From Rhodospirillales bacterium (GTDB lineage: Bacteria > Pseudomonadota > Alphaproteobacteria > ATCC43930 > CGMCC-115725), in NCBI GenBank assembly GCA_019689675.1, contig JADGGZ010000015.1, positions 1-32,570 of the forward strand: a stretch of DNA of 32,570 nucleotides, in the 5' to 3' direction. Below, piece after piece: positions 6,195 through 8,876 of the stretch (its first letter is position 1; every line of letters begins with the position of its first letter). The notes beneath the pieces were generated by a model. The model was not told where the DNA came from and did not search any database. It saw only the letters and a list, made by a program, of their open reading frames with translations. A program made the position numbers and the translations under genes.

Positions 6195-7457
6195 ATGACA
6201 TCGAGTTCCTTTGCCGCCCTCGGCCTCGCCGAGCCGCTTCTTCGCGCCCTCGCGGGCGAAGGCTACGCCACCCCGACTCCTATCCAGGCCAAGGCGATTC
6301 CCCATCTCCTCGCCGGACGCGACCTCCTCGGCCTCGCCCAGACCGGCACCGGCAAGACCGCGGGCTTCGCGCTGCCGATGCTGCAGCGCCTCGCCGAGCG
6401 GCGCGTTCCGCGCGTCCCGCGCAATCCGCGCGCGCTCGTGCTCACGCCGACGCGCGAGCTCGCCGTCCAGGTCGGCGACAGCTTCGCCGCCTACGGGCGC
6501 AACCTTCCGCTGCGCCGCGCCGTGATCTTCGGCGGGGTCGGACAAAAGCCGCAGGTCGATGCGCTCGCACGCGGCGTCGACATCCTCGTCGCGACGCCCG
6601 GACGGCTCCTCGATCTCCTCGGGCAGCGCGCGCTGCGCCTCGACCATGTCGAGATCTTCGTGCTCGACGAGGCGGACCGCATGCTCGACATGGGATTCGT
6701 GCGCGACGTGAAGAAGGTCGTCGCCCTGCTGCCGAAGCAACGCCAGTCGATGTTCTTCTCGGCGACGATGCCGGACGAGATCGGCACCCTCGCGGCCTCG
6801 ATTCTCGCCGATCCCGTACGCGTCGAAGCAGCGCGGATCTCCGCCCCGGCAGAGCGGATCGAGCAGCGCGTCATGTTCGTGAACCAGGCCGACAAGCGCC
6901 GGCTGCTCGAGAAGCTGCTCGAGGACCGGGAACTCGCCCGGGTGCTCGTCTTCACCCGCACGAAGCACGGCGCCAACCGCCTCGCCGACCAGCTCGAGCG
7001 CGCCGGGCACAGCGTCGCCGCGATTCACGGCAACAAGAGCCAGGGCGCCAGGCAGCAGGCGCTGGAGCGCTTCCGCAACGGCAAGGCGCGCGTGCTCGTC
7101 GCGACCGATATCGCAGCGCGCGGGATCGACATCGACGGCGTCACCCATGTCGTCAATTTCGAGCTCCCGAACGAGCCGGAAAGCTACGTCCACCGGATCG
7201 GCCGCACCGCGCGAGCCGGTGCATCGGGCATCGCCTTCTCCTTCTGCAGCGCCGATGAGACCGGCCATCTGCGCGGCATCGAGAAGCTGACGCAGCGTCG
7301 CCTCGCCGTCGTCGAGGATCACCCCTTCCGTGCCGTACCAGGCCATTCGCCGGCGCCGCACCGCGAGCCGCGGCAACATCGACAGGGAGCCGCTTCACGC
7401 CGCAGGGCGGGTGCGCCGGGGCGCCGCCAGCCCGAGCGTCGGGCGGCGCCGCTCTGA
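6195..7457 (+). CDS. rhlE: DEAD-box ATP-dependent RNA helicase, RhlE type
   Basis: This 420-residue protein has all the helicase motifs in order: an FAALGL start, the Q motif GYATPTPIQ (23-31), Walker A AQTGTGKT (48-55), [13 protein letters not shown] at 158-161, SAT at 189-191, [18 protein letters not shown], the [13 protein letters not shown] motif V and HRIGRTAR at 333-340. A basic, disordered tail rich in Arg, Pro and Gln follows (from ~residue 375), typical of RhlE/CsdA-type helicases and used for RNA contact. It unwinds short RNA duplexes, usually in ribosome assembly or mRNA decay and often in the cold. The family begins close to this ATG, but no good Shine-Dalgarno lies before it. The 250-base upstream gap has no other gene and could be a long leader; it holds the palindrome CGCGATCGCG at 5982-5991. 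Confidence 0.93.
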
Positions 7458-7492
7458 GCGCCGGGCGCGCCGGCTAGGGGCGTCGCGTTTCC

Positions 7493-7516
7493 TCCGTACG
7501 TAAATCAGCGTACGGA
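7493..7516. repeat. Perfect inverted repeat TCCGTACG-N8-CGTACGGA
   Basis: Two 8-base arms are separated by the AT-rich octamer TAAATCAG. It lies 35 bases after the helicase stop and 66 bases before the small ORF at 7582. No T-run follows on either strand, so it is not a standard terminator. The symmetry, the 16-base centre-to-centre spacing and the position ahead of the small ORF and the DUF1150 gene suit a protein-binding operator better. No regulator can be named. Confidence 0.5.
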
Positions 7517-7557
7517 CGAGACCCGAATTGCCGCGAGCGCCCGGCAGCGCGAGGTTT

Positions 7558-7573
7558 TCCCGCGAAAGCGGGA
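7558..7573 (+). promoter_or_regulatory. GAAA-tetraloop hairpin covering a ribosome binding site
   Basis: TCCCGC and GCGGGA pair perfectly around a GAAA (GNRA) loop, with possible U-G extension at the base. The 3' arm contains the GGGAG (7570-7574) that would serve as the ribosome binding site of the ORF starting at 7582. Folded, the site is hidden. This is the geometry of a translation-control hairpin or RNA thermometer. DUF1150 genes are often neighbours of small heat-shock genes in alphaproteobacteria, which adds some weight. It lacks the bulged ROSE pattern, and its six G/C-rich pairs may be too stable for a physiological switch. Confidence 0.4.
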
Positions 7574-7581
7574 GCGTTCGG

Positions 7582-7704
7582 ATGCGCGATCTCGAAGCGG
7601 ACTGGAGGCGATGGAGCCTCGGCGAGCGGGTCTCGGCGATCATCCTAACGACTTCGCTCGCTCTCGCGGCCGCTTCCCTCTTCGTCCGCGCGCTCCTCGC
7701 CTGA
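7582..7704 (+). CDS. Possible 40-residue small membrane protein
   Basis: A short frame, ATG to TGA, encodes a charged, Trp-containing N-terminus (MRDLEADWRRWSLGERV) followed by one hydrophobic stretch of about 20 residues (S-A-I-I-L-T-T-S-L-A-L-A-A-A-S-L-F-V). This is the build of single-span small membrane proteins. Codon third positions are mainly G/C. GGGAG sits 7 bases before the ATG, but inside the hairpin at 7558-7573. It ends 20 bases before the DUF1150 start, so the two could form one transcript. I do not recognise a family. Chance ORFs of this length are common in GC-rich DNA, so this is a candidate only. Confidence 0.4.
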   Translation: MRDLEADWRRWSLGERVSAIILTTSLALAAASLFVRALLA

Positions 7705-7724
7705 GGCTCGTCCGGAGAATCGCC

Positions 7725-7934
7725 ATGCGTGCCGGTCTTTCACCCATGTCCCCCGAAGCCTTTGCCGATTTCGCGCTGACCGAGATCGCTTACGTGAAGC
7801 CGCTCGCGAGCGGTCGCGCGACGCGCTACGCGATTCATGCTGCCGACGGGACCCGCCTCGGCATCGCCGACGATCGTGCCACCGCGTTCGCTGCCGTTCG
7901 CCAGCAGGACCTGGAGCCGGTCAGCGTTCAGTGA
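7725..7934 (+). CDS. DUF1150 family protein
   Basis: This 69-residue protein matches the compact DUF1150 pattern known from alphaproteobacteria: MSPEAFADFALTEIAYVKP at the N-terminus, then Y-A-I-H-A-A-D-G-T-R-L-G-I-A-D-D-R-A-T-A and a C-terminal QQDLEPVSVQ. The function of the family is unknown; in rhizobia such genes often sit beside small heat-shock protein genes. Here no Hsp20 gene is present. The ATG at 7725 has CCGGAGAAT upstream; a second ATG at 7746 (MSPEAF) is where some relatives begin, so the true start could be either. It follows the possible small membrane protein by 20 bases and converges on the MarR-GNAT gene, 12 bases away. Confidence 0.77.
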   Translation: MRAGLSPMSPEAFADFALTEIAYVKPLASGRATRYAIHAADGTRLGIADDRATAFAAVRQQDLEPVSVQ

Positions 7935-7946
7935 GCTTCGAGGGAA

Positions 7947-8876
7947 TCAGAGGTCGCGTTCCCAGGTCTCGCCGACAAGGTCGTGCCCGAAGCTGTGGTG
8001 CGGCTCCGAGGCGACGAGCTCGAACCCGGCGGTCTCGTAGATCCGCCGCGCCGCGACGAGGACGCTGTTGGTCCAGAGCGTGATGCGGCGGTAGCCGACG
8101 CTCTTGGCGAAACGCAGGCATTCCTCGACGAGCCGCCGCCCGATCCCGGCGCCGCGCGCGAAAGGCTCGACGTAGAGGAGGCGCAGCTTCGCGATTTCGT
8201 CGGTCTTGCGCACGAGGAAGACCGACCCGACGATCGCCCCGTCCTGCTCCGCGATCCAGCACCGCTCCCGCTTGGGATCGAAATTCTTGATGAACTCGGC
8301 GCCGACCTCGGCGACGAGCGCCTCGAACGTCTCGTCCCAGCCGTATTCCTCGGCATAGAGGACGCCATGCCGGTGCACCACCCAGCCGATGTCGCCCGCT
8401 CGATGCGGGCGAAGGAGGTAGGGCGGGCGGGACGCGGGCCGGTCGCCGAGCAACGTTTCAATGGTGCGCATCGCCTCGACGAGGCGTTGCTGCTGCGGTC
8501 CGGGAAGTCTCTCGAGGAGCGCCGAGATCTCCGCGCGCGAGGCGCGGTCGAGCGGCGCGAAGGCCGCGCGGCCCGCCTCCGTCAGCGCGATCGAGCTCTG
8601 CCGCGCGTCGGTCTTGGACGGAGTGCGCACGATGAGGCCCTCGGTCTCGAATCCGCGCAGAATGCGGCTCAGGTACCCGGCGTCGAGGCCGAGGTCGCGC
8701 GCCAGCTCGGCCGCAGGCAACGGCGGACGCTGGGCGAGCTCGTAGAGCACGCGCGCCTGGGTGAGCGAGAAGCGGCTCTCGTGCAGTCCCTCGCGCAGGA
8801 CCCCGATCTGCTGGGTGTAGAAGCGATTGAAGCGGCGAACGGCCGCGATCCGGTCGTCGAAGGAACCGTCGGGCAT
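7947..8876 (-). CDS. MarR-type regulator fused to a GNAT N-acetyltransferase
   Basis: This 309-residue protein has two domains. Residues ~1-145 are a MarR winged helix: FSLTQARVLYELAQR, then LARDLGLDAGYLSRILRGFE as recognition region and a wing with VRTPSKTDARQ. Residues ~155-309 are a GNAT acetyltransferase: RPHRAGDIGWVVHRHGVLYA, then AEQDGAIVGSVFLV, KLRLLYVEPFARGAGIGRRL with the acetyl-CoA loop (R-G-A-G-I-G-R-R) and LWTNSVLVAARRIYETAGF. This fused type is widespread but poorly studied; the GNAT half may sense or modify a small molecule that controls DNA binding. CGAGGGGG precedes the ATG. Two overlapping palindromes directly upstream suggest autoregulation. The gene lies downstream of the RND pump on the same strand, separated by 61 bases that carry those sites. 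Confidence 0.91.
   Translation of the reverse strand: MPDGSFDDRIAAVRRFNRFYTQQIGVLREGLHESRFSLTQARVLYELAQRPPLPAAELARDLGLDAGYLSRILRGFETEGLIVRTPSKTDARQSSIALTEAGRAAFAPLDRASRAEISALLERLPGPQQQRLVEAMRTIETLLGDRPASRPPYLLRPHRAGDIGWVVHRHGVLYAEEYGWDETFEALVAEVGAEFIKNFDPKRERCWIAEQDGAIVGSVFLVRKTDEIAKLRLLYVEPFARGAGIGRRLVEECLRFAKSVGYRRITLWTNSVLVAARRIYETAGFELVASEPHHSFGHDLVGETWERDL

Follow-up and report, generated by a model that had tools for sequence, protein, structure and literature searches.

The window, that is, the whole 32,570-nt stretch of DNA that was analyzed, contains a compact locus at which a gene for a membrane microprotein is followed, after 20 nt, by a gene for a DUF1150 protein. The two genes, each equipped with its own Shine-Dalgarno motif, are flanked by a DEAD-box RNA helicase gene, which we take to be RhlE-like, and by a convergent gene for a MarR-GNAT fusion protein. 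The features are compiled in Table 1. Scanning positions 7350-8000 revealed neither a sigma-70-type promoter nor a terminator-like site, and a search for plasmid homes of the microprotein and the DUF1150 protein found none. A sequence match (80%, about 57 nt) was also seen on another contig of the same genome (G000:C316).

Table 1. Features of the microprotein-DUF1150 locus and, in the last row, ROSE_3 matches at hsp20 loci.
Feature	Position	Strand	Basis
DEAD-box RNA helicase, 420 aa, upstream flank	6195..7457	+	Pfam DEAD 170.9 bits, Helicase_C 114.1 bits
Perfect 8-bp inverted repeat TCCGTACG-TAAATCAG-CGTACGGA (TCCGTACG-N8-CGTACGGA)	7493..7516	.	Sequence; no T-run after it
Hairpin TCCCGC-GAAA-GCGGGA	7558..7573	+	-11.0 kcal/mol at 37 C
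Shine-Dalgarno GGGAG of the microprotein gene; overlaps the 3' arm of the hairpin	7570..7574	+	7 nt before ATG 7582
Single-span membrane microprotein, 40 aa, member of a multicopy family	7582..7704	+	Homologs in the bacterial family
Shine-Dalgarno GGAG of the DUF1150 gene itself	7714..7717	+	7 nt 5' of the ATG
DUF1150 protein, 69 aa, C-terminal EPVSVQ; second LarA (larA2)	7725..7934	+	Pfam PF06620
MarR-GNAT fusion protein, 309 aa, convergent flank	7947..8876	-	Pfam MarR 50.1 bits, Acetyltransf_1 60.9 bits
ROSE_3 matches below threshold, at hsp20 starts	L008:846-909, L017:2404-2476, L019:714-785, L024:849-912

The microprotein family and its neighbors

The 40-aa open reading frame, proposed as a gene in the preliminary description of this DNA, is indeed a real gene: its homologs keep the start as well as seven invariant residues (D3, D7, W8, W11, E15, R16, and A19) and have a hydrophobic tail. 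The alignment of the family (A1) consists of 17 rows from 19 loci, without L073 and without L058, the latter being located within a long unrelated frame; 16 of the 17 members begin with M. The family comprises single-span proteins of 35-51 aa with the pattern M[RK]D..ADW[RK][RK]WS..ER..A, among them those at L069 (G000:C73), L100 (G000:C292), L046-L057, and L070-L072. Three copies are present in the genome from which the window is derived. At a loose E value of 10, matches were obtained in 24 of the 39 genomes of the same bacterial family; a profile search at an E value of 0.01 retrieved 10 of 26 genomes, and five matches, the weakest with an E value of 0.004, come from a single genome (G038). 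A shallow first look across the class yielded matches in 8 of 387 genomes. In Pfam and NCBIfam, no family reached a convincing score, DUF6101 being among the best (E value 0.004 in 3 of the 17 members), and a literature search on the microprotein found nothing relevant. These microproteins are an unnamed multicopy family with respect to the curated Pfam and NCBIfam libraries.

The neighborhoods of the microprotein genes were compared at 29 loci, at three of which an adjoining gene is DUF1150-like: in the window, on contig C292 of the same genome, and at G017:C66. On C292, the DUF1150-like gene overlaps the microprotein gene by 4 nt; its Pfam score (20.2 bits) is below the cut-off, and a profile comparison gives it a probability of 96. 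At G017:C66, the order is reversed, with the DUF1150 gene first. At four other loci (L049, L071, L098, and L101), the microprotein gene is followed by a different small gene, the product of which starts like M.LVFGPVL..GYA; the copy at L071 seems to be broken, and the one product scanned had no Pfam match. A 78-aa partner of other microprotein copies, considered as a candidate DUF1150 protein, was rejected: it is not a DUF1150 protein and has no Pfam match. The remaining loci have assorted neighbors. Because a DUF1150 neighbor is present at only 3 of the 29 loci, the two genes are associated but separable.

Microprotein relatives at L083 (Azospirillum sp. TSH64), L107, and L108 adjoin similar chemotaxis-type neighbors, identified by Pfam at L083 as CheZ, patatin, and MotB-like. 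Upstream of 6 of the 29 microprotein genes, putative CtrA-like sites (TTAA-N7-TTAA) score 7 of 8 (L047, L052, L053, L057, L108, and L110; 64-107 nt before the start), compared with 5 of 29 for a spacer of 6; none precedes the microprotein gene of the window. The statistics are weak, and these candidate sites are a lead only.

The DUF1150 gene and its hsp20-linked counterparts

The preliminary assignment of the second gene to DUF1150 was borne out by a PF06620 score of 54.7 bits, compared with a curated cut-off of 25. According to PMC10665427, the DUF1150 protein of Caulobacter is LarA, a heat-shock activator of Lon that is coproduced with sHSP2 under the control of sigma32 and acts on Lon via its last five residues, the terminal one being a histidine; the H89D substitution disturbs both binding and activation. 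LarA, described as a heat-shock activator of Lon in PMC10662116 also, speeds the degradation of a sigma factor, sigmaT, by Lon according to that report. A single-term literature search for DUF1150 returned PMC10665427 only.

Among the 39 genomes of the window's bacterial family, a protein search found DUF1150 matches in 30, and 30 of the 35 DUF1150 places adjoin hsp20. The five places without hsp20 are the window, G017:C66, G010:C5, G033:C106, and G035:C5. Apart from the window, three DUF1150 genes without hsp20 (L040, L043, and L044) lie in other contexts. Throughout the class, PF06620 matches 162 of 290 genomes, with two copies in only two of the 162, the window's genome and G010, a count that is to be read in light of the fact that the model misses weaker second copies, further ones having been found by the protein search in G017, G033, and G035.

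It had been stated that the heat-shock gene is missing here. This holds for the immediate surroundings, as there is no hsp20 near the DUF1150 gene of the window, but not for the genome, in which an ordinary larA follows hsp20 on another contig (C375); the products of the two DUF1150 genes are 43% identical. The hsp20 gene on C375 is preceded by an RpoH-like promoter scoring 12/14, which was reached by none of 300 shuffles, and has a ROSE_3 match over its start codon (25.5 bits, below the gathering score of 43). The promoter test covered 23 of the 30 hsp20-linked loci, and 11 of these 23 genes have scores that were reached by at most 4 of 300 shuffles, the other 12 not. The ROSE scan covered 18 of the 30 loci; ROSE_3 matches at the hsp20 start were found at four of the 18, including C375 (Table 1, last row), all below the gathering score, and these are likely to be diverged thermometers. 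The leader of the window has an RpoH-like score of 9, which was equaled or exceeded by 108 of 300 shuffles, and no match to the ROSE covariance models was found at the window locus, where the only match of any covariance model, itself below threshold, was to a microRNA model (mir-354). Given that C375 has both the promoter and the ROSE_3 match and the window locus has neither, it is hsp20-larA at C375, rather than the window locus, that bears the marks of heat-shock control in this genome.

The window protein has kept its reading frame, its hydrophobic tail, and the core residues that are invariant in the alignment. Its C-terminal PVSVQ retains both valines, and the final residue is Q. Among the 35 DUF1150 places in the bacterial family, the last residue is H in 31 and Q in 4; since two of the four Q-ending copies are hsp20-linked, a Q end alone does not imply loss of function. 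The branch of LarA2 in the tree is long (1.5, compared with a median of 0.15; few columns, weak support), so that its function may have drifted. Judging from the sequences, larA2 of the window is a fast-evolving second copy of larA.

The hairpin and the inverted repeat

Both palindromes of the preliminary description are present, the perfect TCCCGC-GAAA-GCGGGA hairpin (7558-7573) and the 8-base inverted repeat (7493-7516), and the hairpin does cover the ribosome site, as its 3' arm overlaps GGGAG, the sole Shine-Dalgarno motif of the 40-aa frame. Perfect stems of 6 bp closed by a 4-nt loop occur 26 times in the window; 15 first-order Markov sequences have 23.1 on average (range 13-28). For stems of 8 bp with loops of 3-12 nt, the count is 34 and the Markov mean 22.1 (range 14-33). 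In view of these counts, neither palindrome belongs to a class that is rare in this GC-rich DNA. The gapped pattern of the inverted repeat has a single match within the window and none in 100 shuffles. A genome scan of the forward pattern that allowed as many as 3 mismatches found one perfect site and six with 3 mismatches, altogether seven, compared with 20 for the reversed pattern as a control. Hence, the earlier suggestion that the inverted repeat serves as an operator of the unit found no second near-copy in the genome to lean on; an operator function is possible but unsupported.

Most likely, the hairpin either keeps microprotein translation at a low level or is without a role. The former reading, according to which it is a static clamp on that translation, or opens only with the help of a protein factor or of a start site within the hairpin, has a good chance of being correct but falls somewhat short of probable. 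It is favored by the fold of the leader, which is better than that of 197 of 200 shuffles and equaled by the other 3 (z -2.49), and by the Shine-Dalgarno motif being only 10% unpaired, compared with a mean of 44% after shuffling of the upstream sequence, although 10% of 40 such shuffles, that is, one in ten, bury the motif equally well.

Almost as plausible, if a little more tentative, is the reading that the hairpin has no regulatory role, being either the core that is left of a worn, dispersed palindromic repeat or a GC-rich palindrome that arose by chance. The 16-mer of the hairpin occurs five times in the genome and not at all in the reversed control, and the other four copies all lie within a longer repeat, CGTCATTCCCGCGAAAGCGGGAATCCA. 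Moreover, TTCCCGC-N4-GCGGGAA has 10 sites in the genome, with none in the control, and is a dispersed palindromic repeat of this genome (G000). A literature search on the repeat found nothing relevant, and the 39 genomes of the bacterial family include no other genome of the window's genus. As the stem counts given above indicate, such stems are about as common in the window as expected by chance. Further, in the accessibility set of 18 microprotein and 12 hsp20 starts, a Shine-Dalgarno motif of 4 bases is lacking at 7 and 2 starts, respectively, and the hairpin was not seen in the examined leaders of the other microprotein copies. Two points speak against a hairpin without a role: the window copy, albeit identical in its core, lacks the CAT...ATCC flanks of the dispersed repeat, and its placement on the sole Shine-Dalgarno motif would be a coincidence. 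A possible origin of the window hairpin is a worn repeat.

Interpretation and comparison with known systems

The genome contains two complete lon genes. One, on C306, adjoins a gene that, from its sequence, we assume to be HU-like. The other, on C153, lies directly behind hsp20, with an overlap of one base (L153:5600-8337, G000:C153), and hsp20 and lon are likely to form an operon there.

On balance, and with moderate confidence, we interpret the locus as a two-gene unit that consists of a single-span membrane microprotein and a fast-evolving larA2, a variant freed from heat shock. Homology and gene order, the absence of hsp20, an RpoH-like promoter, and a ROSE match at this locus, and the presence of hsp20-larA with an RpoH-like promoter elsewhere in the genome are the observations behind this interpretation; at the level of sequence, larA2 is a second larA that lacks signs of heat-shock control and follows a microprotein of an unnamed family. 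The two genes would share one message. The stable hairpin would simply hold microprotein translation at a low level, or the transcript might begin downstream of the hairpin, and larA2 would be translated from its own Shine-Dalgarno motif. LarA2 would bind Lon by its C-terminal tail and tune Lon activity outside the heat-shock response, the product of either of the two full lon genes being a candidate target. Counting against such a unit are the Q instead of H at the end of LarA2, its long branch, the rarity of the pairing (3 of 29 loci, of which two belong to this genome), the reversed order in G017, and the absence of a sigma-70-type promoter.

Alternatively, LarA2 could be a duplicate in decay, or it could act as a decoy, binding Lon but not activating it. 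The long branch, the change of the C-terminal H to Q, and the separation from hsp20 point in this direction, but the retention of the reading frame, the invariant residues, and the hydrophobic tail, as well as the Q end of two hsp20-linked copies, make decay or a decoy function unlikely. A broader proposal, more doubtful still, is that LarA-like proteins act together with membrane microproteins of the D..DW..W...ER..A type as a module by which the regulation of Lon is moved to the membrane, independently of heat shock, and that each of the two Lon proteases has a LarA regulator of its own, with LarA2 serving one protease specifically. In the cited reports, LarA is a heat-shock activator of Lon; a larA duplicate without hsp20, accompanied by a microprotein and by two Lon proteases, would allow a direct test of whether Lon activators have specialized.

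Temperature control, suggested in the preliminary description, is by far the least probable reading: a hairpin that shuts the ribosome site at low temperature and melts as the temperature rises, which would place the unit under heat control, would fit the position of the Shine-Dalgarno motif in the 3' arm and the role of DUF1150 as a heat-shock gene elsewhere, but the perfect, GC-rich stem is too stable (-11.0 kcal/mol at 37 C for the isolated hairpin and still -2.95 kcal/mol at 80 C), the center of the Shine-Dalgarno motif (7571-7572) in the leader is predicted in silico to be less than 5% unpaired up to 65 C (unpaired probability of at most 0.011 at 48 C), a ROSE match is absent here, in contrast to four matches below threshold among hsp20 leaders from the same bacterial family, an RpoH-like promoter is likewise absent, and the stem would govern the microprotein, larA2 having a separate Shine-Dalgarno motif. 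The thermometer reading should be dropped. Like the ROSE-type thermometers of hsp20 leaders (Rfam ROSE_3), the window has a stem over a Shine-Dalgarno motif; however, this stem is perfect and far too stable, lacks a covariance-model match, and is not located ahead of hsp20. With the REP-like repeat of its own genome, TTCCCGC-N4-GCGGGAA, the hairpin shares an identical 16-nt core, but neither the CAT flank nor the ATCC flank.

The closest known counterpart of the protein is LarA of Caulobacter crescentus (CCNA_03707). The window protein is likewise a short DUF1150 protein with a hydrophobic tail (EPVSVQ), but it ends with Q, not H. Unlike its Caulobacter counterpart, the window gene is not located behind a small heat-shock gene and has no RpoH-like promoter; instead, it is a second copy preceded by a gene for a membrane microprotein. 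Sharing an operon with a small heat-shock gene under sigma32 is a mark of the Caulobacter operon, not of the LarA protein family.
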